Positions 34,834 to 59,202 of a stretch of 64,000 bases of DNA are shown in pieces (position 1 is the first letter of the stretch; each line of letters starts with the position of its first letter). The notes under the pieces are model-generated. The model was not told the origin of the DNA and searched no databases. It saw only the letters and a program-made list of their open reading frames with translations. This DNA comes from Betaproteobacteria bacterium. GTDB lineage: Bacteria; Pseudomonadota; Gammaproteobacteria; Burkholderiales; SG8-41. The stretch spans positions 1-64,000 of the forward strand of contig JAQGMI010000088.1 of assembly GCA_028292435.1 (NCBI GenBank), written 5' to 3'. The position numbers were made by a program, and so were the translations under genes.

Positions 34834-36501
34834 TTAATCCGGCATGAGTGCGAAGGTCCACACCGAGCCGCCGAGCGGAATGTCGAGCATGCCGCGGCGC
34901 TGTGAAACGGTGCCGGCGCTGCCCGAAAGAATTGTCACGTACTGTTTGCCATTGCGCGTCCAGGTGACGGGCTGCGCGTTGACCCCGGAAGGCGTTCTGA
35001 ACTGCCACAACTGTTCACCGTTGTCCGCATCGAGCGCGATGACTTCGCCGCTGTGCTTGCCGGTGAACAGCAGGCCGCCGCCGGTCGCGAGGATCGCCGA
35101 GCCGGGCAATTCGCCCATGATCGGCGTGCGCCATTTTGGCTTCGCAGTGATTGGATCGATCGCCTGGAAATAGCCGCCGACGGTCTTCGGCGTGACCGGC
35201 GAATACGTCGCTTCAACGGCCTGGTACCGGAAGCCAGGTGTAAACGGCTCGACCTTGATCAACTTGTAATTCGAATAACCTTCATTGGTCGCGGCATACA
35301 GCAAGCCGGTATTCGGGTTGAACGCCGCGTGCATCCAGTTTTTGCCGCCGCGTATGCTTGGATAAAGCTGGATCTGCTCGCCCGCGCGCAGCCGCTTTGA
35401 CGTTTCCGATTCAACCGGCCGGCCGGTCTTCATGTCGATGTGCGTCGCCCAGTTCACTTCGGTGAACGCTTTCGCCGACAGCAGCTCGCCGGTTGCGCGG
35501 TCGAGCACGTACAGAAAGCCGTTGCGATTCATCTGCATCGCGACCTTGCGCGTTTTACCGTCAACCTGGATGTCGGCAAGGATGATTTCCCACACGGTGT
35601 CCCAGTCGTATATGTCGTTGGGTACAGCCTGGTAATGCCACACGATTTCACCGGTCTTCGGCCGCACGGCGATGATCGATGCCGCGTAAAGGTTGTCGCC
35701 CTTGCGGTTTTCCGGATTGTAAGGCGCCGCATTACCGGTGCCCCAGTACATGAGATCAAGCTCGGGATCGTACGAGCCGGTGATCCAGGTGCTCGCGCCG
35801 CCGTGCAGGTAGGCTTCGGACGGCGTCCAGGTTTCATGGCCTTTTTCACCGGGGCCCGGCACGGTGTAGCGTCGCCACAAATGCGCGCCGGTGTCCGGGT
35901 CCCAGCCATCGAGGAAGCAGCGCGCGCCGAACTCAGCACCCGAGCAGCCGGTGACGACGACGCCGTTCGCGATCAGCGGCGCCAGCGTCAGCGAATAACC
36001 CTGCGTCCAGTCGGCGACTTTCTGCTTCCATAAAAGCTGGCCATTTTTCTGGTCGAGCGCGATCACGTACGCGTCGATCGTGGTGCGGATGACCTTGCCG
36101 TGATACAACGCAACGCCCTTATTCGACACGCCGCAGCAGACGATCCGCGCCGTGTCGGGCGGAAAATCGACCGCCGTGCGCCAGAGACGCTTGCCCGTCA
36201 CCGCGTCGATGGCGACCGTCCACTGCGCATCGGCGATATACATCACGCCGTCGAGCAGCATCGGTTGCGCCTGTTCGCCATAATTGCTTTCAAGCGAAAG
36301 GCTCCACACAGGCACCAGTTTCTTGACGTTGGTCTTGTTGATCTGCGCGAGCGGGCTGTAGCGATTTTGCGAGTAGCCCATGCCGTACGTGAGCACGTCG
36401 TCGGTATTGCGGCCGTCGGCTTTGAGATCATAAGCACCGGGGCCCAGCGCGCACGCGGCAAGTGTCAGCGCGGCGATCAGCAAGAGTAGCGTTCTAATCA
36501 T
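34834..36501 (-). CDS. PQQ-dependent dehydrogenase with lipoprotein signal
   Basis: A 555-residue eight-bladed quinoprotein of the methanol/ethanol dehydrogenase family, which oxidises alcohols in the periplasm. The ATG at 36501 has a GGAG box. Unlike its two neighbours, it has a lipobox: 'LTLAAC' with C17, so it is probably membrane-anchored. PQQ-site features are the vicinal pair C122-C123, metal ligands E190 ('SGAEFG') and N257 ('WGTGNAAP'), catalytic D299, and D301, where calcium enzymes have Ala, Ser or Thr. The D299-W-D301 motif marks lanthanide-dependent enzymes. It lacks a fused cytochrome domain; the cytochrome c gene 14 bases downstream supplies the acceptor. Confidence 0.92.
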   Translation of the reverse strand: MIRTLLLLIAALTLAACALGPGAYDLKADGRNTDDVLTYGMGYSQNRYSPLAQINKTNVKKLVPVWSLSLESNYGEQAQPMLLDGVMYIADAQWTVAIDAVTGKRLWRTAVDFPPDTARIVCCGVSNKGVALYHGKVIRTTIDAYVIALDQKNGQLLWKQKVADWTQGYSLTLAPLIANGVVVTGCSGAEFGARCFLDGWDPDTGAHLWRRYTVPGPGEKGHETWTPSEAYLHGGASTWITGSYDPELDLMYWGTGNAAPYNPENRKGDNLYAASIIAVRPKTGEIVWHYQAVPNDIYDWDTVWEIILADIQVDGKTRKVAMQMNRNGFLYVLDRATGELLSAKAFTEVNWATHIDMKTGRPVESETSKRLRAGEQIQLYPSIRGGKNWMHAAFNPNTGLLYAATNEGYSNYKLIKVEPFTPGFRYQAVEATYSPVTPKTVGGYFQAIDPITAKPKWRTPIMGELPGSAILATGGGLLFTGKHSGEVIALDADNGEQLWQFRTPSGVNAQPVTWTRNGKQYVTILSGSAGTVSQRRGMLDIPLGGSVWTFALMPD

Positions 36502-36548
36502 GGTTTTCTCCATTGACTGCTTGATTGCACGTGAGCCATCGGAACGCG

Positions 36549-38225
36549 CTATTGGTCCATCAGCGCGAATACCCACACCGAGCCGCCGCGCGGCACGTTC
36601 TTCAATTGCTCGCCCATACGCACCACGTTGACGCCGCCCAGCCCCGACTGAATCGCGACGTACTGCCTGCCTTTGTGCGTGAACGTAATCGGCTGCGCGT
36701 TGATGCCCGAGCTGGTCTGGAACTGCCACAGCGTTTTGCCGCTATCCATGTCGAGCGCAATGAATTCGCCGGTTTCCTTGCCGGTGAACAGCAGGCCGCC
36801 GGCGGTCGCCAGGATCGCCGAGTAATGCGGAATATCCATGATCGGCGCGCGCCACTTGTGCTTGCCGGTCAACGGTTCGATCGCATCGACATGCGCAATC
36901 GGCGAACCCGCCTCGCGCGGCGCCGGCAGATTTTTGAGACCGACGTAGCGCTGGCCGACTTTGTATTCGACGGGTTCGAACTGGACCAGCCGCGAATTGT
37001 GCATCGTGTTCGCGTAGAGCAACCCAGTTTCCGGATTGAACGCAGCGTGCGCCCAGTTCTTGCCGCCCCACTGGCCCGGCCATAATTCGATTTGTTCGCC
37101 GGCGCGTACTTTCTTGGCGACGTCTGACTCGATAGGGCGTCCGGTCTTCATGTCGACGTGTGTCGCCCAGTTGATTTTCTCGAACGGTTCGGCGGACAGC
37201 AGTTCGCCGTTGGTGCGGTCGATCACATACAAAAATCCGCCGCGCGAGAAATGCATGGCGACTTTGCGCTTCACGCCTTTGACGTTGATATCGCCGAGAA
37301 TCCATTCCCACACCGCATCGAGGTCGAACATTTCGTTCGGCACGAGCTGGCGGTGCCACACGACCTCGCCCGTCTTCGGCTTCAACGCAAGCACCGACGC
37401 CGTGTACAGATTGTCGCCCGGCCGCCCGGCGGGCGCCCAGGGTCCTGCATTGCCGGTGCCCCAGTACACGAGATCGAGTTCGGGATCGTACGAACCGGTA
37501 ATCCACGTCGACCCGCCGCCGCGCAGATACGCATCGCCTGCCGGCCACGTCTCGCTGCCTTTTTCGCCGGGCGCCGGAATCGTGTAATGCCGCCACAATT
37601 GCTTGCCGGTCTCGGGATCGAGGCCGTCGAGAAACCCGCGTACGCCGAACTCGGCGCCGGAGATGCCGGTAATCAACACGCCGTTGGCAACCATCGGTGC
37701 CGAGGTGATCGAGAAACCCTCTTTCCACTCCGCAATCTTGGTCTTCCAGAGTTGCTTGCCGGTCTTTTGATCGAGCGCAACGACATGCGCATCGAGCGTG
37801 CCGCGGTAAACCTTGCCGTTGTAGACCGCGGGACCTTTGTTGGAAATACCGCAGCACACGACGCGCGGCGTCGCCGGATCCCACTCAACCGCCGTGCGCC
37901 ACAGTTGCTTGCCGGTCGCAACGTCGATTGCGACGGTGAATTCGGCGTTGGCCACGAACATGATCCCGTCGTAAACGAGCGGCTGCGCCTGTTCGCCGTA
38001 GTTGCTGCCGAGCGACGTGCTCCACACGGGCACCAGCCGTTTTACCGTTTGCTTGTTGACCTGCTTCAACGTGCTGTAGCGGTTCTGGTTGTAGCCCATG
38101 CCATAAGTCAGCACGTTGTCAGTGCTGCCGCCGGCGCCGTCGCGCACGAGGTCCTGCTGCGTTTGCCCGAACGCGGCGACACTGCAGCCCACCGTGAGTA
38201 CAGCACTCAAAAGCAGATTTCTCAT
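36549..38225 (-). CDS. PQQ-dependent dehydrogenase, second tandem copy
   Basis: A 558-residue quinoprotein with a classical signal peptide ('LLLSAVLTVGCSVAAFGQ'); an AGGAG box precedes the ATG at 38225. It shares the family layout: vicinal C124-C125, metal ligands E192 and N259, catalytic D301 and the extra D303 ('MFDLDAVWE'), again the lanthanide-type pattern. It diverges most from the other two copies around this site (Phe-Asp-Leu-Asp rather than Tyr-Asp-Trp-Asp) and in the 'HFSRGGFLYVIDR' blade, so its substrate may differ. It lies 47 bases before the lipoprotein copy. The three dehydrogenases probably form one transcript. Confidence 0.93.
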   Translation of the reverse strand: MRNLLLSAVLTVGCSVAAFGQTQQDLVRDGAGGSTDNVLTYGMGYNQNRYSTLKQVNKQTVKRLVPVWSTSLGSNYGEQAQPLVYDGIMFVANAEFTVAIDVATGKQLWRTAVEWDPATPRVVCCGISNKGPAVYNGKVYRGTLDAHVVALDQKTGKQLWKTKIAEWKEGFSITSAPMVANGVLITGISGAEFGVRGFLDGLDPETGKQLWRHYTIPAPGEKGSETWPAGDAYLRGGGSTWITGSYDPELDLVYWGTGNAGPWAPAGRPGDNLYTASVLALKPKTGEVVWHRQLVPNEMFDLDAVWEWILGDINVKGVKRKVAMHFSRGGFLYVIDRTNGELLSAEPFEKINWATHVDMKTGRPIESDVAKKVRAGEQIELWPGQWGGKNWAHAAFNPETGLLYANTMHNSRLVQFEPVEYKVGQRYVGLKNLPAPREAGSPIAHVDAIEPLTGKHKWRAPIMDIPHYSAILATAGGLLFTGKETGEFIALDMDSGKTLWQFQTSSGINAQPITFTHKGRQYVAIQSGLGGVNVVRMGEQLKNVPRGGSVWVFALMDQ

Positions 38226-38276
38226 TGCATTACTCCTGAAAAATGGCGGTGCTCATTGCGGCCGCCTCACGGCAAA

Positions 38277-39950
38277 TCAATTATCGAACAGTGCGAACGT
38301 CCACACCGAGCCGCCGACCGGCACGTTCTTCAGCGCCTCGCGGCTGCGGGTGCCGTAAAGCCCGCCCAATCCGGACAACACCGTCAGGTACTGCTTGCCC
38401 TTGTGCGTCCAGGTGACCGGCATCGCGTTGATGCCGGAGCTCGTGCGGAATTCCCACAGCTGCTGTCCGGTGTCGGCGTCGAGCGCGAAAAACTCGCCGG
38501 TGTGCTTGCCGCTGAACAAGAGGCCGCCGCCGGTCGCGAGCATCGCCGACGCAATCTGATAGTCGCGCACTGGAATACGCCATTTCGGCGTTGCCGTCAT
38601 CGGATCGATCGCTTCGATATGGCCGACGATGTCGCCGGGATGAACGGTTGGATATGTGTTCTCGACGCCGACGTAGCGCGCACCCGGCTTGAACGGCGCG
38701 AGGTCGAGCAGGCGCACGGTCGACGGCGTGTCGTTGGTGTTTGCGTACAACAGGCCGGTGTTCGGATTGAACGCGGCGTGCGGCCAGTTTTTCGCGCCCC
38801 GCACGCTCGGCCACATCGTGAACGGCTCGCCCGCGCGATACTTTTTGGCGCCTTCGGATTCCACCGGACGGCCCGTCTTCATGTCTACGTGCGTGGCCCA
38901 GTTGAGATGGCCGAAGGCTTTGGCAGACAGCAATTCACCCGTGGCGCGATCAAGGACGTAGAGAAATCCATTGCGGTTCATCTGCATCGCGACCTTGCGT
39001 ACGACGCCGTTGACGTTGATTTCGCCGAGAATGATTTCCCACACCGAGTCCCAGTCGTAGATGTCGTTCGGTGTCGCCTGGTAATGCCAGACGATTTCAC
39101 CGGTCTTCGGCCGCACCGCGATGATCGAAGCGGCGTAAAGATTGTCGCCCTTGCGCACCGACGGATTCCACGGCCCGGCGTTACCGGTGCCCCAATACAT
39201 AAGGTCGAGGTCCGGATCGTACGAACCGGTTATCCAGGTGCTGCCGCCGCCGTGCTCATACGCATTGCGCGGCTCCCAGGTGTTATGTCCCTTGTCGTCC
39301 GGGCCGGCGGTCGTATAACGCCGCCATAAATGTTTGCCGGTGTCGGGATCCCAGCCGTCGAGAAAACCGCGGATGCCGAATTCAGCGCCGGATATGCCGG
39401 TCACGAGCACGCCGTTCGCAATCAGCGGCGCAACTGTCTGCGAATAGCCTTCAGTCCACTCGGCGGCCTTCTGCTTCCATAACTCTTTGCCGGTTTTCTG
39501 GTCAAGTGCGACGACGAATGCATTCAACGTTGTGCGGAACACTTTGCCGTTGTACAGCGCCACGCCTTTGTTCGATACGCCGCAGCACACGACGCGCGGC
39601 GTTTCCGGCGGAAAATTGACTGCCGTGCGCCAGATCTGCCGACCGCTCAGCGCATCGAGTGCAACCGTCCACTTCGCGTTGCTCACGTACATGACGCCGT
39701 TGTGAATAATCGGCTGGGCCTGCTCGCCGAATTCATTTTCGAGGCCTGCTGTCCACACCGGCACCAGGCGTTTGACGTTGTTCTTGTTGATCTGCGCAAG
39801 CGAGCTGTAGCGGTTTTGCGCATATCCCATGCCGTAAGTCAGCACATTGTCGGGATTCTTGCCGTCGTTTTGGAGATCGTCGAGCGTCTGGGCCGATGCG
39901 GTGGCGATGCCGAGCAGCATGAGCGACGCCGTGAATGCAGTTTTTTTCAA
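38277..39950 (-). CDS. PQQ-dependent dehydrogenase, first tandem copy
   Basis: A 557-residue quinoprotein. The start is TTG at 39950, supported by a GGAGG box seven bases upstream; the first internal ATG (39920) would destroy the signal peptide ('ASLMLLGIATASAQ'). PQQ-site residues are C122-C123, E190, N257, catalytic D299 and lanthanide-type D301 ('IYDWDSVWE'). It is closest to the lipoprotein copy, sharing long identical runs such as 'YAASIIAVRPKTGEIVWHYQ'. It is transcribed first of the three, after a 128-base gap from the amidohydrolase gene. There is no XoxG or XoxJ homologue beside it, so the exact alcohol or aldehyde substrate is open. Confidence 0.93.
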   Translation of the reverse strand: MKKTAFTASLMLLGIATASAQTLDDLQNDGKNPDNVLTYGMGYAQNRYSSLAQINKNNVKRLVPVWTAGLENEFGEQAQPIIHNGVMYVSNAKWTVALDALSGRQIWRTAVNFPPETPRVVCCGVSNKGVALYNGKVFRTTLNAFVVALDQKTGKELWKQKAAEWTEGYSQTVAPLIANGVLVTGISGAEFGIRGFLDGWDPDTGKHLWRRYTTAGPDDKGHNTWEPRNAYEHGGGSTWITGSYDPDLDLMYWGTGNAGPWNPSVRKGDNLYAASIIAVRPKTGEIVWHYQATPNDIYDWDSVWEIILGEINVNGVVRKVAMQMNRNGFLYVLDRATGELLSAKAFGHLNWATHVDMKTGRPVESEGAKKYRAGEPFTMWPSVRGAKNWPHAAFNPNTGLLYANTNDTPSTVRLLDLAPFKPGARYVGVENTYPTVHPGDIVGHIEAIDPMTATPKWRIPVRDYQIASAMLATGGGLLFSGKHTGEFFALDADTGQQLWEFRTSSGINAMPVTWTHKGKQYLTVLSGLGGLYGTRSREALKNVPVGGSVWTFALFDN

Positions 39951-51435: not shown

Positions 51436-52503
51436 ATGAACATGGACGTGTGGCACGGCAGCAACGACGCGGCGTGGGACCGCGCGCAGGAGGAATTGTT
51501 TGCGGCGGGCGTCACTGACGGCCTGCCGGTAACGCCGCCCACGCGCGAACGCGTTGAAGCGATGCTCGCGCATTGCGGCATCGAAGGCGATCAAGTTATC
51601 GGCATGCTGCCGCCCGCATTCGGCGAAGTGACGTGGCGCGACATTGCGATCAACGCGGTGATGGCCGGCTGCCTGCCGGCTCATCTGCCTGTCGTCGGCG
51701 CAGCGGTGGATGCGCTTGCTGCGTCCGAGTTCAATCTGATCGGCGTGGCGACGACGACCGGTTCGGCATGGCCGATCATCATCGTCAACGGTCCTATCGC
51801 GGCCGAACTCGGCATGAACGCCGAGGGCAACGTGCTTGGGCCCGGTAATCGCGCCAATGCCGTAATCGGGCGCGCCATGAATCTAGCGCTGCGCAACATC
51901 GGCGGCGCGCTGCCTGGCGAACTGGACATGGCAACGCTGGGTCAACCCGCGAAGTACACGTGCTGTTTTCCCGAGAATGAATCGGCAAGTCCGTGGGCCG
52001 CACTCCACGTCGAGCGCGGCTTCAGCAAAGAATCGAACGTCGTGACCATCGTGGGCATCGCCGGTTCGGTTGAGATCGTCGACTCGGCCAGCAACACGCC
52101 CGAGAACCTGGCCCAGACCTTCGCGCAATCGATGCTGATTGCGGGCAGCGCAGGCGGCGGCGGATTCGGACTTTTGGGCGGCGGCGAGCCGCTGCTGCTG
52201 ATGCCGCCTGAAATCGCCAACACGTTCGAGCGCGGCGGCTGCAACAAAGCTCAGGCAAAAGCGCTGATCTGGGAACGCGCCGTGCTGCCGCTCGACCGGC
52301 TGTCGCCCGCGGTTCGCGAACATCAGCGCGAGCTGCGAGTCGCCGCTGAAGACGGCACCGTTGACGGTCCATTGCGAATCGCACGCAAGCCCGACGACGT
52401 CATGATCGTCGTCACCGGCGGTGTCGGCATCAAAGCCGCGTACATGCCGACGTGGGGCGGCACGACGAAAGCAGTGAGCCGGCTCATTCGCGAAAGCCGT
52501 TAA
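51436..52503 (+). CDS. Paralogue of the UGSC-selenoprotein partner family
   Basis: A 355-residue protein of a family I cannot name, homologous along its length to the gene at 54967-56088 that overlaps the UGSC selenoprotein. Shared landmarks are 'DGLPVTPPT' near residue 29, C47, 'NAVMAGCLP' with C79, 'IIIVNGPIAAEL', 'LGPGNRANAVIGRA', 'AKYTCCFPENE' with C176-C177, and the C-terminal 'VVTGGVGIKAAYMPTWG'. Three cysteine positions are conserved between the two. No signal peptide or membrane helix is apparent. It may be an enzyme with a thiol-dependent step. Two ATGs lie six bases apart (51436 and 51442). It is divergent from the flavin monooxygenase. Confidence 0.75.
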   Translation: MNMDVWHGSNDAAWDRAQEELFAAGVTDGLPVTPPTRERVEAMLAHCGIEGDQVIGMLPPAFGEVTWRDIAINAVMAGCLPAHLPVVGAAVDALAASEFNLIGVATTTGSAWPIIIVNGPIAAELGMNAEGNVLGPGNRANAVIGRAMNLALRNIGGALPGELDMATLGQPAKYTCCFPENESASPWAALHVERGFSKESNVVTIVGIAGSVEIVDSASNTPENLAQTFAQSMLIAGSAGGGGFGLLGGGEPLLLMPPEIANTFERGGCNKAQAKALIWERAVLPLDRLSPAVREHQRELRVAAEDGTVDGPLRIARKPDDVMIVVTGGVGIKAAYMPTWGGTTKAVSRLIRESR

Positions 52504-52558: not shown

Positions 52559-53788
52559 TTATTTGTTCAGCGCCGCGCCCGCCATCCACCCGACCGCGCC
52601 AAGCGTAGTTTGGGCGGCGTTCAAGCCGAGACGGAAATCGTGATCGGAGTACGAGCTATAGCGATCCGTCGGCTGATGATAGTGAGGGTTCCAACCGGCG
52701 CCGATCTGCATTCCGCGCTCGTTCTCGCGCACGCTCAGCGATGGCGCGAAATCCTCGAACGCCGTCGAGTCGGTATTGCTCATGTGATGGCCGACTGCGG
52801 CCGGATAGTCGGTCGCGTAGCGTTCGTTGGCGTCGCGCATGACGACCGCGAGCCGCATGGCCTGATCCGCGAACTTCGAGTTCGCCTGATATTCGATGTT
52901 GACGTCCGCCTCCGGCCGCTGCTCGGGGCTCACCGTGCCGTCGGCGCGCGGCATGCCGTGATCCCACAGCATCATGTCGTGCTGAATCATCACGAGCCAC
53001 CGCGGTTCCGGATAACGGCCTGATTTGGGCGGATCTTCGTTCCCCTGCAACGCGGCGCGCTGCTCAATATAAGCACGGGCGCCGTGAAGGCCCGTTTCCT
53101 CGTTGTTCCACAGCACGAACCGGATCGAACGTTCCGTCGTCACGTCAGGACTGCTGAAAGCACGCGCGAGTTCCATTACGAGCGCGGTGCCCGATGCGTC
53201 GTCGTCGATCGCTTCGCCAAAACCGCGCCCGTCCATATGGGCGGCGACGATGAACATCTCATCCGGGCGCGTCGCGCCGACCTTGGTGCAATACACCTGC
53301 TCGCGCGGACCGGCGACCGGCGCCTGCGAGTCGAGCGCGCGCAGCGCGGCATCCGGTAGTGCGTTCGGATCGTTATTCGGAACGACGGACCGCGTCATGC
53401 CGCGCATGCGCGCCCCGCCGACGCCCATGCGGATTTCTCCGCTCGCAATCCTGCTCGCGGGCGTCGGCGCGGCGATGGCCTGCGCCGGCGCCTGATCGAA
53501 CGAGAACTTCATGCGCTCGACGGGCGCGCATCCATAGCTTTTGAGTTGAGCTTCGATCCAGTTCACCGCCGCGCGATTGCGGTCCGTGCCGTGCAGCCTG
53601 TCGCCAAACCGGGCAAGGCCTCGCAACGTGCTCTTGTACTTTTCGAGGTCGAGTCGGCGGACGAGCACCCCAACGGAATCGCCGGTCGCGCTGCCTGCCG
53701 ATTGAGCTGGCGCATCGACCGCGGCGGCGACGCTGATTCCGGCGATTACGACCAACTGCGCCGCAAATCGAAACGGTTTCCCTTGCAT
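52559..53788 (-). CDS. Exported M28-family zinc metallopeptidase
   Basis: A 409-residue aminopeptidase-like enzyme. The ATG at 53788 follows an AGGAGG box and opens a signal peptide ('LVVIAGISVAAAVDAPAQS'). Zinc ligands visible: H184 ('FIVAAHMDGRG'), the bridging Asp in 'AIDDDASGTALVMELARAF' (D195-197), E230/E231 ('LWNNEETG'), D271 and H371 ('NPHYHQPTD'). The layout and length fit peptidase family M28 without an added PA domain. It should act in the periplasm on peptides or N-acyl amino acids. It is convergent with the selenoprotein-partner paralogue and lies downstream of the enolase-superfamily gene. Confidence 0.9.
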   Translation of the reverse strand: MQGKPFRFAAQLVVIAGISVAAAVDAPAQSAGSATGDSVGVLVRRLDLEKYKSTLRGLARFGDRLHGTDRNRAAVNWIEAQLKSYGCAPVERMKFSFDQAPAQAIAAPTPASRIASGEIRMGVGGARMRGMTRSVVPNNDPNALPDAALRALDSQAPVAGPREQVYCTKVGATRPDEMFIVAAHMDGRGFGEAIDDDASGTALVMELARAFSSPDVTTERSIRFVLWNNEETGLHGARAYIEQRAALQGNEDPPKSGRYPEPRWLVMIQHDMMLWDHGMPRADGTVSPEQRPEADVNIEYQANSKFADQAMRLAVVMRDANERYATDYPAAVGHHMSNTDSTAFEDFAPSLSVRENERGMQIGAGWNPHYHQPTDRYSSYSDHDFRLGLNAAQTTLGAVGWMAGAALNK

Positions 53789-53838
53789 GACTGACCTCCT
53801 GGCTTCGCATGGCCGGGGGCAAGACAACCCCATACGCC

Positions 53839-54936
53839 TTAACTCACCGCAAAGCGCCGCACGCGCGCTTCGTCGACTTCGATGCCGAGGCCGAGACCGT
53901 CCGGAACTTGCGCATGCCCGTCATTAATAATCAGCGGGCACGCGAGCACATCTTCGGCGAGATACTGGCTCGTCAGCGACACGCCCCACGCTAGCGACGG
54001 CACCGCGGCGGCGAGGTGCAAAACGGCGGCAGTCGCTATGCCCGATTCTGCAATCTTGCAGGCGAGATTGACTTGCATACCGAGCTCGTCGCACAGCCTG
54101 GAAGCGTCGTACATCGTGCGCAATCCACCAAGCTTGATGGCTTTGAGACTCACGCCGCTTGCGGCTTGGCCGGCATGATGGCGGCGGATGTCGGCGAGAG
54201 TGTGCACGCCTTCGTCGCAGCCGATTGGAATGCGCGTCGCCGCCGCGATCTCGGCCATGCCTTCGAGATCGCCCGCCATGACCGGTTGCTCGAGAAAATT
54301 GAGTGAAGTCGCGGCAACCGCACGCACGTATTCGAGGGCCTGTCCGACCGTCCAGTTCTGGTTCGCGTCCGCGGACACCAGCACATCGTTGCCGAGTGCT
54401 GCGCATACCGCTCGCGTGCGCTGGATGTCGTGTTTGACGGGCCCGGCGCCGACTTTGATTTTGTATGCGACGAAGCCGTCCGCTTTGCAACGCTTCGCTT
54501 CAGCGGCGTCGGCGTCCGCATTGCCCGAAGCAATCATGCGCAATGCAGAGATGCGGTTGCGGCGCTTTTCGCCGAAGAGCTGATACACCGGCTTGCCGAG
54601 CAGTTTGCCGAATGCGTCGTGCGCAGCCATGTCGATCGCCGCCTTGGCGCCGGAATTGCCGTAAAGATTGCCGTCCATCAAACGTGACAGCTGCGCGATA
54701 TCGGTGATATCGGCGCCGTTCAAAAATGGCGCGAGATGATTGACCGCCGCAACCATGCTCGCGGTAAATTCACCGGTCATCGTCGGCGCCGAGCCCGCCT
54801 CGCCCCAGCCGACGACACCGTCGGCTTCGATGCGCACGAGCACATTGTCGGCAGTGGTCAGCACGCCTTTCGACCGCTTGATCGGCTGGCTGAGCGGCAG
54901 GCTGACCGCAATGGCTTCGATGCGCTGTATTTTCAT
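53839..54936 (-). CDS. Enolase-superfamily (mandelate racemase/muconate lactonizing) enzyme
   Basis: A 365-residue MR/MLE-type enzyme that abstracts a proton alpha to a carboxylate and stabilises the enolate with Mg2+. Catalytic features are the K159-x-K161 pair ('AYKIKVG'), metal ligands D190 ('SADANQNW'), E216 ('FLEQPV') and D241 ('GCDEGV'), and K268 ('AIKLGGL') on the opposite face, the muconate-lactonizing/dipeptide-epimerase pattern. Typical reactions are cycloisomerisation or racemisation; the substrate here is unknown. It lies 30 bases after the UGSC partner gene and 50 bases before the M28 gene, on the same strand, so all four genes from the selenoprotein on are probably one operon. 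Confidence 0.9.
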   Translation of the reverse strand: MKIQRIEAIAVSLPLSQPIKRSKGVLTTADNVLVRIEADGVVGWGEAGSAPTMTGEFTASMVAAVNHLAPFLNGADITDIAQLSRLMDGNLYGNSGAKAAIDMAAHDAFGKLLGKPVYQLFGEKRRNRISALRMIASGNADADAAEAKRCKADGFVAYKIKVGAGPVKHDIQRTRAVCAALGNDVLVSADANQNWTVGQALEYVRAVAATSLNFLEQPVMAGDLEGMAEIAAATRIPIGCDEGVHTLADIRRHHAGQAASGVSLKAIKLGGLRTMYDASRLCDELGMQVNLACKIAESGIATAAVLHLAAAVPSLAWGVSLTSQYLAEDVLACPLIINDGHAQVPDGLGLGIEVDEARVRRFAVS

Positions 54937-54966
54937 CGCAAGCGGCGCGCCGGCTTCAGATACGCT

Positions 54967-56088
54967 TTAGCGACGGCGAAATTCTTCGACCGACTTCGCG
55001 AACTTGCCGTCGTGCGTCTTCAACGGCAACGTCACCGGATGCGTCGCACCGAAGGTCGGCACATAAGCCGAATGCTTGCCGGCGCCGCCGATGACGAACA
55101 CGTACGCGTTGTTCGGGTCTTTCATCACCGGCACCAGACGATCGAGACCGGCTTCCGCAAATTCGCCATTGAATACCGGCCATTGGCGAATGCGGCGTTC
55201 GATGTTCTCGTCCGAAAGCGCGCCGAGCGGCACGCGTCCGTGCTCGAACAGATATTTCTTCACATCGGCCTTGGAATAACCGTCCTTCGCGATGGTCGCC
55301 GCATGCTCGGGTCCGAAAATGAACGCGGGCGCGCCGTCGAAGTACAAGTTGTTAGCGCCGGTCGTGGCCACGACACCTGCCATCATCTTGAGCAGGCCGA
55401 TTCCGGTGAGGCTCTCGTGATCGTTCAGATTGTGCGGGCTTTCCGCACCGAAGACGCTGACGGTGCTGGTGTCCCGTGAAAAGCCGAGTTCGACCTGCAG
55501 CGGCTCCCACGGACTTTCATCTTCATTCTCCGCGGCGCAGAAAGTGTATTTCGACGGCGTGCCGAACGTCGCCATATCGCCTGCGGCGGGAACCGCGCCG
55601 GCGATGTTCAGCATGGCGAGGCGCACCGCGCGGCCGATCGTCGCGTTCGCCTGGTTGCCGGGGCCAAATGCGTTGTGGCCCGAATTCATTTTCAGTTCTT
55701 GGGCGACCGGCCCGTTGACGATAATCATCGTCGCGCACGGATGCGTGGTCGCGTTCACGCCGTAAAGATTGTATTTTTCATCCGCGAGCGCGTCGATCGC
55801 GAGCATCACCAGCGGAAAATATTCAGGCTTGCAGCCGGCCATCACTGCGTTGGCGGCGAGCCGTAGCGGTGTCGCCTCGCCGTAACGCGGTGCGAGCAGG
55901 CCCATTGCTTGATCGAGCGGCCGGTCACAGTAGCCGAGCATTTTTTCGACGCGCTTCGCGGTTGGCGGCACGATCGGCAAACCATCGCCCCAGCCTTTTT
56001 CGATGTACAGCGCGTTGATACGCTCGAAGTCGTCTTCGGCTTCAAGGCCGGCGCCCGGTGCTTTTATCAAGTCGCTAAGGTCGCTCAT
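54967..56088 (-). CDS. UGSC-selenoprotein partner protein, unnamed family
   Basis: A 373-residue protein whose ATG overlaps the stop codon of the UGSC selenoprotein gene (ATGA at 56085-56088), so the two are made together. I do not recognise a characterised family. Conserved with the paralogue at 51436-52503: 'DGLPIVPPT' near residue 35, C54, 'NAVMAGCKP' with C86, 'TMIIVNGPVAQEL', 'GPGNQANATIGRA', 'SKYTFCAAENEDESPW' with C184, and 'VFVIGGAGKHSAYVPTFG'. There is no signal peptide or membrane helix. The conserved cysteines and tight coupling make a redox partnership with the selenoprotein plausible. This is inference. Confidence 0.78.
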   Translation of the reverse strand: MSDLSDLIKAPGAGLEAEDDFERINALYIEKGWGDGLPIVPPTAKRVEKMLGYCDRPLDQAMGLLAPRYGEATPLRLAANAVMAGCKPEYFPLVMLAIDALADEKYNLYGVNATTHPCATMIIVNGPVAQELKMNSGHNAFGPGNQANATIGRAVRLAMLNIAGAVPAAGDMATFGTPSKYTFCAAENEDESPWEPLQVELGFSRDTSTVSVFGAESPHNLNDHESLTGIGLLKMMAGVVATTGANNLYFDGAPAFIFGPEHAATIAKDGYSKADVKKYLFEHGRVPLGALSDENIERRIRQWPVFNGEFAEAGLDRLVPVMKDPNNAYVFVIGGAGKHSAYVPTFGATHPVTLPLKTHDGKFAKSVEEFRRR

Positions 56089-56624
56089 GACACGTTCGCC
56101 TTCACGACTTTGGCGAATTGCGGCGCCGCTTCACCGGCGCGCGATTTGACATCGTCGATTGAGATGCCGCCCAACGGATGGGTTATTTCGACCAGCGGCA
56201 GTTCCGGCACACCAAAAGTGCGCGCCTGATTGCGGCCGAGCTTTTCGAACGGCCCCGAGTAAATGACGGCAGTAACGAGACCGCGCTTTCTCAGTTCACA
56301 CATGTCGTGGACACTCCACGACGTGCATGACCCTCAATCGCCCATCGCGGAGATGACGAAATCGCACTCCGCAGTCAGGCGATCGAGCACGGCCGCCGGC
56401 GCCGGCGTGCTGGGATTGTTTTTGCGCATCACGAGCACCGACGAAATGTTCAATACCTTTTGCAGGTTCTCGACCACGAATGCGAGCAGATGATCGGCGT
56501 TACCTTTCGTGTTATCGAGCGTGCCTAAGCGAATGCCGCCCGCTTTGATCTTGCGCTTGTCGCCCGCGCCCGCAAACTGATGCGGCGGCGCTTCGGGCGA
56601 AATCAGAAAAACCGTTCCGCTCAT
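56085..56624 (-). CDS. UGSC-family selenoprotein (in-frame TGA as selenocysteine)
   Basis: The reading frame from the ATG at 56624 (AAGGA box seven bases upstream) reaches a TGA at 56334-56336. In the same frame it continues to a TGA at 56085, giving 179 residues with Sec at 97. The junction reads 'FVISAMGD-U-G-S-C-TSWSVHDMCELRKRG', the hallmark of UGSC (seleno)proteins, first noticed in metagenomic selenoproteome surveys. A SECIS-like hairpin follows immediately. The N-terminal part ('SGTVFLISPEAPP', 'LGTLDNTKGNADHLLAF') and C-terminal part ('PFEKLGRNQARTFGVPELPLVEITHPLGG') are one protein by homology pattern. U97-x-x-C100 resembles a redox motif. Automated callers would break it into two genes of about 101 and 72 residues. 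Confidence 0.88.
56297..56329 (-). promoter_or_regulatory. Bacterial SECIS-like hairpin for selenocysteine insertion
   Basis: The hairpin starts four bases after the TGA at 56334-56336. Two 14-base arms (56316-56329 and 56297-56310) form seven perfect pairs next to the loop (GTCGTGG with CCACGAC), one C-A mismatch and then six further pairs including two wobbles. The apical loop is AGTGT, with a G among its first two bases, and it begins 18 bases after the TGA. This agrees with the published general bacterial SECIS rules (loop 16-37 bases from UGA, early loop G). It would recruit SelB with Sec-tRNA. Confidence 0.85.
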
Positions 56625-56727
56625 CGCTCTATCCTTCATCGTGTATTTGACTGGCGGATTCTAATGGACTTTGTCGCGCAGGCGCAAAGAACGTATATTG
56701 ATTGCACGCAATCATGCGGACGCCCTC

Positions 56728-57648
56728 ATGAAATCAGTAGTCATAAAATTCGGCGGCTATCAGCAACCCACTTCCATCCATACGCGCGCTGCCGCGCGGT
56801 TCGGCGAGATAGTGAAGTCGCGGCTGGGCAACCGCGTCGAGTTCGAATTGATCGCGGACGTGCTCGCGCTCGGGCGCGGCTCCGGCGATCTGTTGCCGAT
56901 GGTCGAGCGCAGCGAGTTATCGTGCTGTTATATATCGACAGTGCGGCTCACGACCGCGGTGCCCGATTTCAAGCTGCTCGAACTGCCGTTCATCATAAAA
57001 AGCCGCGCGGCCATCATTAACGCGCTCAACGGCGAACTCGGCGGGCACTTTAAGCGCCGGGTTCACGCGTCCACGCCGTTTCACATCGGCGGCTTCTGGG
57101 ACAATGGTTTTCGCCATTTCTCGAATCGCGTGCGCGCGATCCGCACGCCGGACGACTGCCGTGGCCTGCGCATCCGCACGCAAATGAGCGAGCTGCACGG
57201 CGAAGTGTTTCGCCAACTCGGCTTCGAACCGGTCGCGGCGGACATCAAGGAATTCGTCGCCGAAATTGCCGCGGACAAGTTTGATGCGCAGGACAATCCG
57301 CTGACGAATATCTACAACTTCGGCGTGCACCGGCATCATCGCTACCTCACGCTCTCTGGCCATTTTTTCGGCGCCAGCGTACTGGCGTTCAATGCGCAAA
57401 CCTATCAAAGCTGGCCACCCGACGTTCGGATAGCGGTCGACGCTGCAGCGCTCGAAGCCACCGCACTTCAGCATCAACTTGCCGCCGCCGAAGATGCCGA
57501 AATCATGGCGAAGTTCGATGCGCGCACGAATGAAGTCATCCGTTTGACCGCGACCGAACGCGCGGCATTCGTTGATGCGGTCGCGCCGGTCGTGGCGAGA
57601 CACCGCGGCGAGATCGATCCGATGTTGTTCCGTCATATCGAAGGCTAG
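56728..57648 (+). CDS. TRAP-receptor (DctP)-like protein without signal peptide
   Basis: A 306-residue protein of the DctP fold, the binding component of TRAP transporters, which bind carboxylates through a conserved Arg. Family-like stretches include 'TRAAARFGEIVKSRLGNRVEFELI', 'LPFIIKSRAAII', 'FHIGGFWDNGFRHFSNRVRAIRTPDDCRGLRIRTQ' (with the ligand Arg) and 'FDAQDNPLTNIYNFG'. Unusually, it begins directly at the mature-like strand ('MKSVVIKFGGYQQP') and no hydrophobic signal is found upstream in frame. It may be a cytoplasmic binding protein, or the start has been lost. No DctQ or DctM subunits are nearby. It is divergent from the UGSC gene across 103 bases. Confidence 0.78.
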   Translation: MKSVVIKFGGYQQPTSIHTRAAARFGEIVKSRLGNRVEFELIADVLALGRGSGDLLPMVERSELSCCYISTVRLTTAVPDFKLLELPFIIKSRAAIINALNGELGGHFKRRVHASTPFHIGGFWDNGFRHFSNRVRAIRTPDDCRGLRIRTQMSELHGEVFRQLGFEPVAADIKEFVAEIAADKFDAQDNPLTNIYNFGVHRHHRYLTLSGHFFGASVLAFNAQTYQSWPPDVRIAVDAAALEATALQHQLAAAEDAEIMAKFDARTNEVIRLTATERAAFVDAVAPVVARHRGEIDPMLFRHIEG

Positions 57649-57655
57649 GCCCGCG

Positions 57656-57675
57656 GCGCCTGCCGGCGCTTTTTT
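57656..57675 (+). terminator. Intrinsic terminator after the DctP-like gene
   Basis: A GCGCC stem arm, TGCC loop and GGCGC arm are followed by six T residues. It starts eight bases after the stop codon of the DctP-like gene. Confidence 0.85.
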
Positions 57676-57758
57676 CTTGTTTTACGCGTGCGAGCGTTTG
57701 GATTACGCTCTTCGTGCACCGACTCGAAACATCACAACTCGAACATTCAGGAGGACGT

Positions 57759-58169
57759 ATGCACAAACTTCAATCGATCGTCGCTTGCATTCTGCTGCTG
57801 GCGGTGCCGGTGGTTGCGGTCGCGCAAACCGCCGCGCCGCAATCGAGCCGCAAGGCGCTGATGGCGAAGGACCTGTCCGATTTCCCGGGCAAGGAAGCGA
57901 TGGTTTATATCGTCGAATATCCGCCCGGCACCAGCAACGTGCCGCACCGGCATAATGGGCACGTGTTCCTGCACATTCTCGAAGGCCAGTTGAACGCGCA
58001 GGTCAAAGGCGGTGAACTGACGGTATTGAATCCAGGCGACACGTATTACGAATCACCGACCGACATTCACATCGTCTCGCGCAATCCGAGCGCGACCACG
58101 CCGGCCAAGGCGATGGTATTTTTAATTCACGAAAAAGGCGCGGCGCTTTCCGTTCCTGTCAAAGAGTGA
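57759..58169 (+). CDS. Exported cupin-domain protein
   Basis: A 136-residue periplasmic cupin. The ATG at 57759 follows a strong AGGAGG box and opens a signal peptide ('IVACILLLAVPVVAVAQ'). The cupin metal site is visible as 'PHRHNGHVFLHILEGQL', which supplies three histidines and a Glu, and a second motif 'VLNPGDTYYESPTDIHIVSRN' with His. Small exported cupins of this kind are common and mostly uncharacterised. It probably binds a divalent metal. It lies alone, between the DctP-like terminator and the receptor cluster reading the other way. Confidence 0.87.
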   Translation: MHKLQSIVACILLLAVPVVAVAQTAAPQSSRKALMAKDLSDFPGKEAMVYIVEYPPGTSNVPHRHNGHVFLHILEGQLNAQVKGGELTVLNPGDTYYESPTDIHIVSRNPSATTPAKAMVFLIHEKGAALSVPVKE

Positions 58170-58173
58170 CGAC

Positions 58174-58200
58174 GCGCGCAGGCGTTATCCGCTTGCGCGC
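58174..58200. terminator. Hairpin between convergent genes, probable terminator
   Basis: An 11-bp stem with one G-T wobble (GCGCGCAGGCG with CGCTTGCGCGC) and a TTATC loop lies in the 42 bases between two convergent stop codons. It lacks a clean T-tract, so termination may be weak or Rho-assisted. Confidence 0.55.
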
Positions 58201-58211
58201 GAATTTAATCG

Positions 58212-59177
58212 CTACTCAGCGCGCGCGCCTGACGCCTTCACCACGATGGCCCACTTGCTGATTTCGGCTTTGAGATAAGCGCCGAATTGTTCAGGCGTGC
58301 CGCCGACGGGATCGAGCCCCTGCCCGACGAAACGTTCTTTGACCGCGGGCTGCGCCAGAATGCGCGCGATCTCGGCATTGAGTTTCACCACGACATCGTG
58401 CGGCGTCGCGGCCGGCGCCAACACGCCGTGCCAGGTGCTCGTTTCGTAGCCCTTTAATCCCGCTTCGGCGATGGCCGGCACTTCCGGCATCAGCGCAGTA
58501 CGGCGAGCGCTGGTCACGCCCAGCGCGCGCAATTTTTTCGCTTCGACGAGCGGCAAGGCCGCCGGCACCGTCGCGAAATAGAGGTCAACCTCGCCCGACA
58601 ACAGCGCCGTGACAGCGGGGCCGGTACCCTTGTACGGCACATGCACGATGTCGACGCCGGCCAGCGACTTCAATAATTCTCCTGACAGGTGCGTCGCGCT
58701 GCCGCCGCCCGCCGACGCGTAGTTGAGCTGCCCCGGCCGCTTTTTCGCCAGCGCAGTCAATTCCACGGCGTTCTTCGCGGGCACCGCCGGATGTGCGAGC
58801 AGCACGTAGGGCGTCGTCGCGAGCTGTATCACCGGGGTGAAGCTTGTGACGAGGTCGTAGCCGAGCTTCGGATACAACGTCGCACCTATCGCATTCGCTA
58901 CGTTGACTTGAAACAGTGTGTAGCCGTCGGCAGCGGCACGCGCCGCCGTTTCGGCCGCAACGTTACCGCCTGCGCCCGGCCGGTTCTCAATCAACACCGG
59001 TTGACCCCAGCTTTCCGTCAGTTTCTGTCCCACCAGCCGGGCGACGATATCGGTGCTGCCACCCGGCGGAAAAGGCAGAATCAGCCGGATTGGTTTCGCG
59101 GGATACGCTTGCTGCGCGCTGGCCGGTAAATGCCACGTGAGGACGACACATCCAGCCAACACTGCGCTGCGCCACAT
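58212..59177 (-). CDS. Bug/TctC-family periplasmic solute receptor
   Basis: A 321-residue Bug receptor. The ATG at 59177 is preferred; a TTG directly before it (59180) is an alternative with better spacing to a GGAG box. Signal peptide 'AVLAGCVVLTWHLPASAQ'. Ligand loops 'LPFPPGGSTDIVARLV' and 'ENRPGAGGNVAAET' match the family consensus. It is the last of three tandem receptor genes, 25 bases after the second. Confidence 0.9.
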   Translation of the reverse strand: MWRSAVLAGCVVLTWHLPASAQQAYPAKPIRLILPFPPGGSTDIVARLVGQKLTESWGQPVLIENRPGAGGNVAAETAARAAADGYTLFQVNVANAIGATLYPKLGYDLVTSFTPVIQLATTPYVLLAHPAVPAKNAVELTALAKKRPGQLNYASAGGGSATHLSGELLKSLAGVDIVHVPYKGTGPAVTALLSGEVDLYFATVPAALPLVEAKKLRALGVTSARRTALMPEVPAIAEAGLKGYETSTWHGVLAPAATPHDVVVKLNAEIARILAQPAVKERFVGQGLDPVGGTPEQFGAYLKAEISKWAIVVKASGARAE

Positions 59178-59202
59178 CAAAGGCGCTCCGGCTTACGTAA
59201 CG

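Follow-up and report, generated by a model that had tools for sequence, protein, structure and literature searches.

The window analysed here, the first 64,000 nucleotides of contig JAQGMI010000088.1 from the Betaproteobacteria bacterium assembly GCA_028292435.1, carries on its minus strand two overlapping genes. The first, at 56085-56624, is a UGSC-family gene that begins with ATG at 56624-56622, meets an in-frame TGA at 56336-56334, the predicted codon for selenocysteine (Sec) at residue 97, and continues for 82 codons to a final stop (TGA, 56087-56085). Read through, the frame yields a 179-residue protein with the site U97-G98-S99-C100. The second, at 54967-56088, encodes a 373-residue protein, DGLP, named after its motif; its start codon (ATG, 56088-56086) overlaps the UGSC stop as ATGA. 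A preliminary description of this DNA had proposed the TGA-interrupted frame with its 82-codon continuation, the GGG TCA TGC that follows the TGA to give a U-G-S-C site, the ATGA overlap (56088-56085) and the splitting of the gene by standard callers, and all of these were borne out: open reading frame (ORF) calling returns pieces of 101 and 72 residues. That description gave no strand; its frame stands, and the gene lies on the minus strand. Its reading of a selenoprotein was sound and incomplete, for it missed the partner gene, the likeness to glycine and proline reductase selenoproteins and the number of paralogues.

By its profile matches, the window gene belongs to the UGSC family already described, as had been predicted. 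Its product scores 139.5 bits against Pfam PF24696 (cut-off 25, E 1.6e-40), with residues 23-174 aligned to positions 19-170 of the 172-position profile, and 124.8 bits against NCBIfam NF041046 (UGSC_fam), 0.2 bits below the cut-off of 125 when cysteine is scored in place of Sec. All 32 UGSC proteins that were aligned match both families, in listings that extend to E 10 and with some falling below the NCBIfam cut-off. Ten positions are invariant among them: P10, N38, K40, K68, U/C97, G98, D107, F126, H149 and P150.

As judged from the genome and the wider family, the UGSC gene is almost certainly a real selenoprotein gene made by recoding of UGA. The preliminary description presupposed a Sec machinery, and all four components were found in the host genome (G000 in our numbering; a draft of 5.17 Mb in 178 contigs, 90.6% complete with 8.1% contamination), each over its cut-off: selA at 590 bits, selB at 446, tRNA-Sec (selC) at 77 and selD at 418. 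The selD gene (G000:C147:54661-55587) has one in-frame TGA of its own, and the selenophosphate synthetase of this genome is probably itself a selenoprotein. Eighteen UGSC matches in the genome lie over cut-off, each with exactly one internal TGA, and three more fall below it. In 18 of the 18 the TGA occupies the same column, within a U-G-x-[CS] motif, and because it does so, a sequencing error, which the preliminary description had itself raised, is not a reasonable explanation. Across 88 distinct sequences from this genome and its relatives, the site is TGA in 74 and Cys in 14, so that the expected homologues with U or Cys at residue 97 exist and relatives do not end there. The Cys forms come from contigs titled Mycobacterium, Rhodococcus, Planotetraspora, Achromobacter, Cupriavidus, Candidimonas and Bordetella petrii. 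Sec synthesis also tracks the family: in a hand-chosen set of 70 further genomes, selA exceeded its cut-off in 38 of the 40 with UGSC versus 7 of the 30 without. Where Fisher tests were run, they ignore relatedness, and their P values are not leaned on here.

Immediately after the Sec codon the minus strand can form a hairpin of the type expected for a selenocysteine insertion sequence (SECIS; 56296-56330), with a conserved core of 8 bp at 56304-56322. The preliminary description was right about its presence and position and wrong about its form, giving 13 pairs and a 5-nt loop where the main stem (56330-56296) has 7 + 8 = 15 pairs and a 3-nt loop. For the 49 nt that begin with the TGA, RNAfold predicts a folding energy of -21.3 kcal/mol, with a z-score of -3.5 against dinucleotide shuffles, of which 1 in 200 was as stable. 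The stem also encodes TSWSVHD, which makes structure hard to separate from coding. Among 2000 synonymous recodings of the window sequence, 116 match or exceed its stability; coding thus accounts for part of the hairpin, which by this measure, and taken by itself, does not reach significance at the 5% level. A scan of 54000-58500 against Rfam at the gathering threshold gave no match.

Support for the hairpin beyond chance comes from the family-wide comparison. In the 74 distinct Sec genes the 8-bp core retains a mean of 6.84 pairs versus 4.81 under synonymous recoding, exceeding its own null in 68 of them, and 58 keep seven or eight of the eight pairs. The 14 Cys genes likewise exceed their null, at a lower level (3.57 pairs versus 2.27; above null in 12). 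Among 40 distinct cores, 79.4% of cells are paired and 30 cells have changed on both sides yet remain paired, values that 0 of 500 shuffles reached; one core pair, for instance, is C-G rather than G-C in 13 of the 40. Cruder measures of covariation in these cores are unexceptional, the number of pairs with a double change being equalled in 70 of 500 shuffles and that of further pair types in 154 of 500. The covariation score of the core exceeds that of all six slid registers; the register slid by -3 has more double-change cells (35), and those slid by -3 and +3 show more pair types. The core is not kept in some Sec genes (e.g., L070, L114 and L118-L122, where L numbers denote loci), and those from the host genome have predicted hairpins in other registers. 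Folding energy alone discriminates poorly: over 54-nt windows after the codon the mean z-score is -0.83 for the 74 Sec genes and 0.04 for the 14 Cys genes, with only 13.5% of Sec genes below -2, and comparison with synonymous recoding gives no clear difference between the two sets (Mann-Whitney P 0.052).

DGLP has no Pfam or NCBIfam match. Scanning 32 family members against both collections gave only scattered single-member matches, at 0.012 or worse, and a sequence search of the PDB with DGLP returned none. When a structural model of a UGSC-DGLP fusion was compared with PDB and viral folds, the DGLP part found no convincing match, in a comparison that barely covered the parts outside residues 24-183. 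Two cysteines, C86 and C184, are nearly invariant in the family.

UGSC and DGLP very probably form a functional pair. When species genomes were scanned for DGLP relatives and the best 80 of at least 584 were taken, a UGSC gene was present at 76 of the 80 loci; two of the four others (L074, L097) begin at contig ends, and two (L086, L090, titled Poribacteria) have none in the stretch scanned. All 81 UGSC genes in DGLP-containing loci lie on the DGLP strand, with a widest gap of 2392 bases between matched domains. In the host genome 17 of the 18 UGSC genes have a same-strand DGLP, and the remaining one is at a contig edge. Gene order differs by type, UGSC coming first in 61 of 67 Sec forms and DGLP first in 14 of 14 Cys forms. 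In some loci the two share one open frame with no intervening TGA (L112 and L118-L122 in the host genome; L040, L044, L046, L051, L052, L063, L076 and L089 in relatives). The association extends across the order: among 399 genomes, with at most eight UGSC and five DGLP candidates scored per genome and the lists compared by hand, 44 match UGSC at E 0.001, 41 of them over cut-off, and 42 match DGLP, with all 41 included in the 42. Three genomes depart from this pattern: in G235, DGLP is accompanied by no more than a weak match to UGSC (6.9e-4), while G053 and G177 match UGSC weakly and lack DGLP. A second DGLP-family gene lies in the window on the plus strand at 51436-52503 (405 bits to the DGLP profile, 42% identity to the first over the matched part), and no UGSC gene was found beside it within the window. 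In L042, L045, L047 and further loci from Alphaproteobacteria, a single UGSC gene is followed by two or three DGLP genes in tandem; some of these loci, L042 among them, have a gene resembling trxB upstream.

The 18 UGSC genes of the host genome are mostly distant paralogues, with a median pairwise identity of 27% and a highest of 70%; contamination could account for a few. Similar multiplicity is seen in five relatives for which all candidates were scored, where matches at E 0.001 number 58 in G293 (of the same genus), 26 in G055, 24 in G140, 18 in G349 and 18 in G131, and those with an in-frame TGA, counted by hand, number 54, 24, 23, 18 and 17, respectively. In G293 the TGA is the sole internal stop in 51 matches, some of them partial, the presence of TGA at the Sec column being confirmed for the host genome only; G293 is a draft listed as 98% complete with 2% contamination, and caution about mixed strains applies. 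If UGSC-DGLP has indeed been duplicated into dozens of substrate specialists, we know of no larger expansion of a single selenoprotein family. By its closest named relatives it sits in a betaproteobacterial lineage. For comparison, the largest whole selenoproteomes on record comprise 57 and 63 genes, the second of them from a metagenome-assembled genome that possibly mixes strains (PMC13188914), and the UGSC counts here (18, and 51 TGA-only matches in the same-genus draft) approach them. The text of that review nowhere uses the terms Betaproteobacteria or Burkholder. In a table of a 2016 survey, the entry for UGSC-containing protein gives the figures 26 and 33; we read these as organisms and genes (PMC5029168).

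Downstream of the pair, in the same-strand run, lie two further genes: a mandelate racemase/muconate lactonizing (MR/MLE) enzyme of the enolase superfamily 30 bp after DGLP (53839-54936; PF13378 3.1e-51, PF02746 1.6e-21) and, 5 bp further on, a peptidase M28-family protein (52559-53833; PF04389 6.9e-23). Cotranscription of the MR/MLE gene with UGSC-DGLP is inferred, and the spacing suggests that the peptidase may participate as well. Divergent from UGSC on the plus strand is a DctP-type substrate-binding protein of the tripartite ATP-independent periplasmic (TRAP) class (56728-57648; PF03480 5.7e-49), associated by position only, and a TctC/Bug-type solute receptor lies at 58212-59180 on the minus strand. 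Near the UGSC-DGLP pairs of this genome no Pfam family is commoner than TctC, to which 30 of 124 nearby proteins belong; in relatives, the 144 adjacent proteins include 23 TctC, 12 Pyr_redox_2 and 11 LysR. The neighbor genes in both counts were delimited with a simple ORF caller. The genome encodes at least 150 TctC/Bug receptors (150 of 488 candidates scored). Some Cys-type loci carry genes for coenzyme A (CoA)-transferase III, acyl-CoA dehydrogenase, biotin-dependent carboxylase or thiamine pyrophosphate (TPP) enzymes, and the neighborhood as a whole points to organic acid catabolism. Elsewhere in the window, at 34834-39950, three similar consecutive ORFs (631, 558 and 557 aa) presumably encode dehydrogenases of the pyrroloquinoline quinone type.

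A candidate reductant also recurs near the pairs. A profile for thioredoxin reductase-like (TrxB-like) proteins, seeded from five UGSC-DGLP loci whose seeds are included in the count, identifies 17 genes, all but one with a CxxC motif, in 98 loci. In loci from Alphaproteobacteria, twelve complete CxxC genes are found upstream of the pair at a distance of 94-181 bases, along with one fragment lacking CxxC (L104), and three genes lie downstream of Cys-type pairs (L082, L088 and L102, among 14 Cys loci). In the host genome one cluster (L121, G000:C82:1-15000) holds on a single strand selA, selB, a trxB-like gene (CADC), tRNA-Sec, a TctC receptor and a UGSC-DGLP fusion.

Profile comparisons suggest that UGSC is likely homologous to the Sec domain of the glycine reductase subunit GrdB and its D-proline reductase counterpart PrdB, and descent from a GrdB-like ancestor is a reading we favor with fair confidence. 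Scanned against NCBIfam, 11 of the 32 UGSC proteins match GrdB (TIGR01917, best 3.3e-5), 8 PrdB (best 0.0053), 6 GrdF, 4 TIGR01918 and 3 GrdH; other families in that listing recur in at most 4 of the 32. Of ten proteins scanned singly, four match TIGR01917, the widest alignment placing residues 79-175 on GrdB positions 331-422 of 431, and three match PrdB at positions 118-174 of 238; residues 82-175 of L040 align to GrdB 333-422 of 431. A profile alignment (hhalign) with six GRDB-like proteins puts Sec97 on their Sec or Cys (P 0.0021, probability 13%). One of the six is a predicted selenoprotein of the host genome itself (L132:1396-2616; G000:C114 near 120 kb), GrdB/PrdB-like at its N terminus and with U158 in U-P-N-C.

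The structural models are confident (UGSC-DGLP fusion, predicted local distance difference test score (pLDDT) 93.9 and predicted template modeling score (pTM) 0.93; window UGSC, pLDDT 90.2), and modeled UGSC consists of five consecutive strand-helix units, weakly resembling flavodoxin, CheY and TIR folds. Its best PDB fold matches, to TIR and flavodiiron proteins, are weak as well, with query template modeling (TM) scores of 0.31-0.51 over the 50 rows listed, and PDB searches by UGSC sequence or profile gave chance matches only. From these predictions and weak matches, the fold may be flavodoxin-like, unlike the thioredoxin-like fold suggested in print (PMC2398784).

The layout of UGSC-DGLP is similar to that of these reductases: the Sec subunit is small and its partner larger, paralogues are numerous, receptors lie close by and the sel cluster includes a TrxB-like gene. 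From this we infer a function resembling that of protein B. GrdB and PrdB are thought to attack the carbon beside the leaving group via Sec and then to break the Se-C bond with a thiol (PMC10298544). By analogy, UGSC-DGLP may be a substrate-specific Sec enzyme like glycine reductase protein B, reduced by a thioredoxin reductase-like protein and acting on imported carboxylates, a proposal that we judge evenly balanced; that the chemistry is reductive, with Sec attacking and a leaving group displaced, we would put slightly lower. UGSC and DGLP would form one enzyme, much as GrdB does with GrdE or PrdB with PrdA. DGLP would hold a small imported carboxylate, the Sec selenolate would attack its activated carbon, and an amine, hydroxyl, halide or sulfur group would be displaced. 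A thiol, either C100 in most copies or a nearly invariant DGLP cysteine, would then free the product and leave a selenenylsulfide for the thioredoxin reductase-like protein to reduce; C86 and C184 could supply the resolving thiol or, alternatively, a pyruvoyl precursor. Paralogues would serve different substrates imported by TctC/DctP receptors and would draw on one common reductant. For the gene run in the window, the nearby enolase-superfamily enzyme and M28 peptidase hint at a substrate derived from an amino acid or hydroxy acid.

Several observations weigh against this protein B-like proposal. Known GrdB-type enzymes come from anaerobes, whereas Mycobacterium, Achromobacter and Cupriavidus, among the hosts of the family, are aerobes. 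The matches of siblings scanned singly fall far below curated cut-offs (L040 scores 21.7 bits versus 602.2 for TIGR01917, and PrdB matches reach at most 16.2 bits versus 300); the window UGSC protein itself has no match to the GrdB/PrdB models TIGR01917, TIGR04483 and PF07355, and Pfam gives no link to GrdB or PrdB for any of the 32 UGSC proteins. The GrdB motif is UxxCxxC (PMC13188914), and it is absent from the window protein, which reads UGSCTSW with tryptophan at residue 103. Even the cysteine at +3 (the C100 position) is missing from 8 of the 88 distinct copies; a simple UxxC redox pair therefore cannot be universal, and Sec itself, rather than the pair, is the essential element. The enrichment of TctC receptors near pairs is modest for a receptor-rich genome, about twofold (counted by hand, the top 150 receptors include 10 near pairs where 4.4 would be expected; P 0.013). 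Finally, the TrxB-like profile finds no gene in the window and only the 17 in 98 loci, and for three of those encoded upstream the NCBIfam thioredoxin-reductase score is 171-197 bits, below the cut-off of 343.

The strongest competing explanation is that UGSC-DGLP depends on Sec without being a reductase, its selenolate acting as nucleophile in an isomerase, lyase or group-transfer reaction of carboxylate catabolism. Such a role, which we regard as somewhat unlikely, would fit the dispensability of the +3 cysteine alongside an invariant Sec or Cys at position 97 in the 32 aligned proteins, the CoA-transferase III, acyl-CoA dehydrogenase, carboxylase and TPP-enzyme genes near Cys-type copies, and the enolase-superfamily enzyme that adjoins the pair in the window; it fits less well with the TrxB-like genes that neighbor a number of Sec and Cys copies and the one in the host sel cluster, or with nearest profile relatives, GrdB and PrdB, that are reductases. 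Less probable again is that UGSC acts as a thiol oxidoreductase of the thioredoxin type, with DGLP or other proteins as the targets that it repairs or regulates. The suggestion of a thioredoxin-like fold in print (PMC2398784), the UxxC motif of most copies, TrxB-like neighbors in some loci and the two nearly invariant DGLP cysteines would all accommodate it, but the model is flavodoxin-like, with five strand-helix units and weak PDB matches (TM-score 0.31-0.51), the +3 cysteine is not conserved, and dozens of paralogues in one genome suit substrate specialists better than a general reductant. That translation truly ends at the TGA, or that the TGA is an error, with a decaying frame beyond it, is scarcely credible: ORF calling does split the gene and the draft does carry 8.1% contamination, but we reject an artefact or pseudogene on the strength of the family-wide TGA, present at one column in all 18 host genes, and conserved residues on both sides, Cys in other lineages, full Sec machinery and ATGA coupling to DGLP all stand against it.

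Returning to the protein B-like proposal, UGSC-DGLP may be an overlooked family of two-part selenium enzymes used by environmental bacteria on organic acids. More tentatively, it might constitute an undescribed class of two-subunit selenoenzyme, a slimmed-down protein B in which a free GrdB-type Sec domain works with a partner of perhaps new fold, dozens of substrate specialists operate in environmental Betaproteobacteria, and reductive C-X cleavage of imported carboxylates takes place outside strict anaerobes. In aquatic metagenomes UGSC ranks with the major families of selenoproteins (PMC2398784, PMC9402790), and, as the preliminary description stated, the literature passages available to us give it no function. 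The near-constant partner, the candidate reductant and the link to glycine reductase make that function directly testable. Their genes would be divided by any caller that ends a frame at TGA. In our literature search, which left supplements and most subscription papers outside its range, the pairing with DGLP, the expansion and the glycine reductase link were not described, save for one fusion to an unnamed domain, Unknown_1.

That fusion, UGSC/Unknown_1 in the Global Ocean Sampling survey (PMC2398784), joins UGSC to an unnamed conserved domain and is possibly a DGLP fusion. With the UGSC family as defined (PF24696, NF041046) the window gene shares sequence, Sec within UGSC and length; in the portions of the literature available the family appears as a single protein with no function given, whereas in the present data a partner gene accompanies it and paralogues are numerous. 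GrdB with GrdE resembles UGSC-DGLP in the placement of Sec by profile alignment, in its two-subunit layout and in an HPLG-type motif that follows Sec. It differs in that UGSC matches just its C-terminal Sec domain and lacks UxxCxxC, and in that DGLP matches no NCBIfam or Pfam family. PrdB offers the parallel of a short Sec subunit with UxxC, as in UGSC, while scans of 32 DGLP proteins against Pfam and NCBIfam detected no relation to PrdA. Several substrate-specific paralogues sharing a common reductant are proposed here and are known for GrdB-type protein B: in many bacteria several protein B complexes feed one reductase, and GrdB-like pairs have been proposed for C-F cleavage of fluoroacetate (PMC10838667). 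The pair in question, FarB/FarE, consists of GrdB and GrdE homologues in anaerobic Synergistota, and in this it differs from UGSC-DGLP; the two systems are alike in that a Sec subunit, a partner and a transporter are proposed to cleave the C-X bond of an imported carboxylate (PMC10838667).

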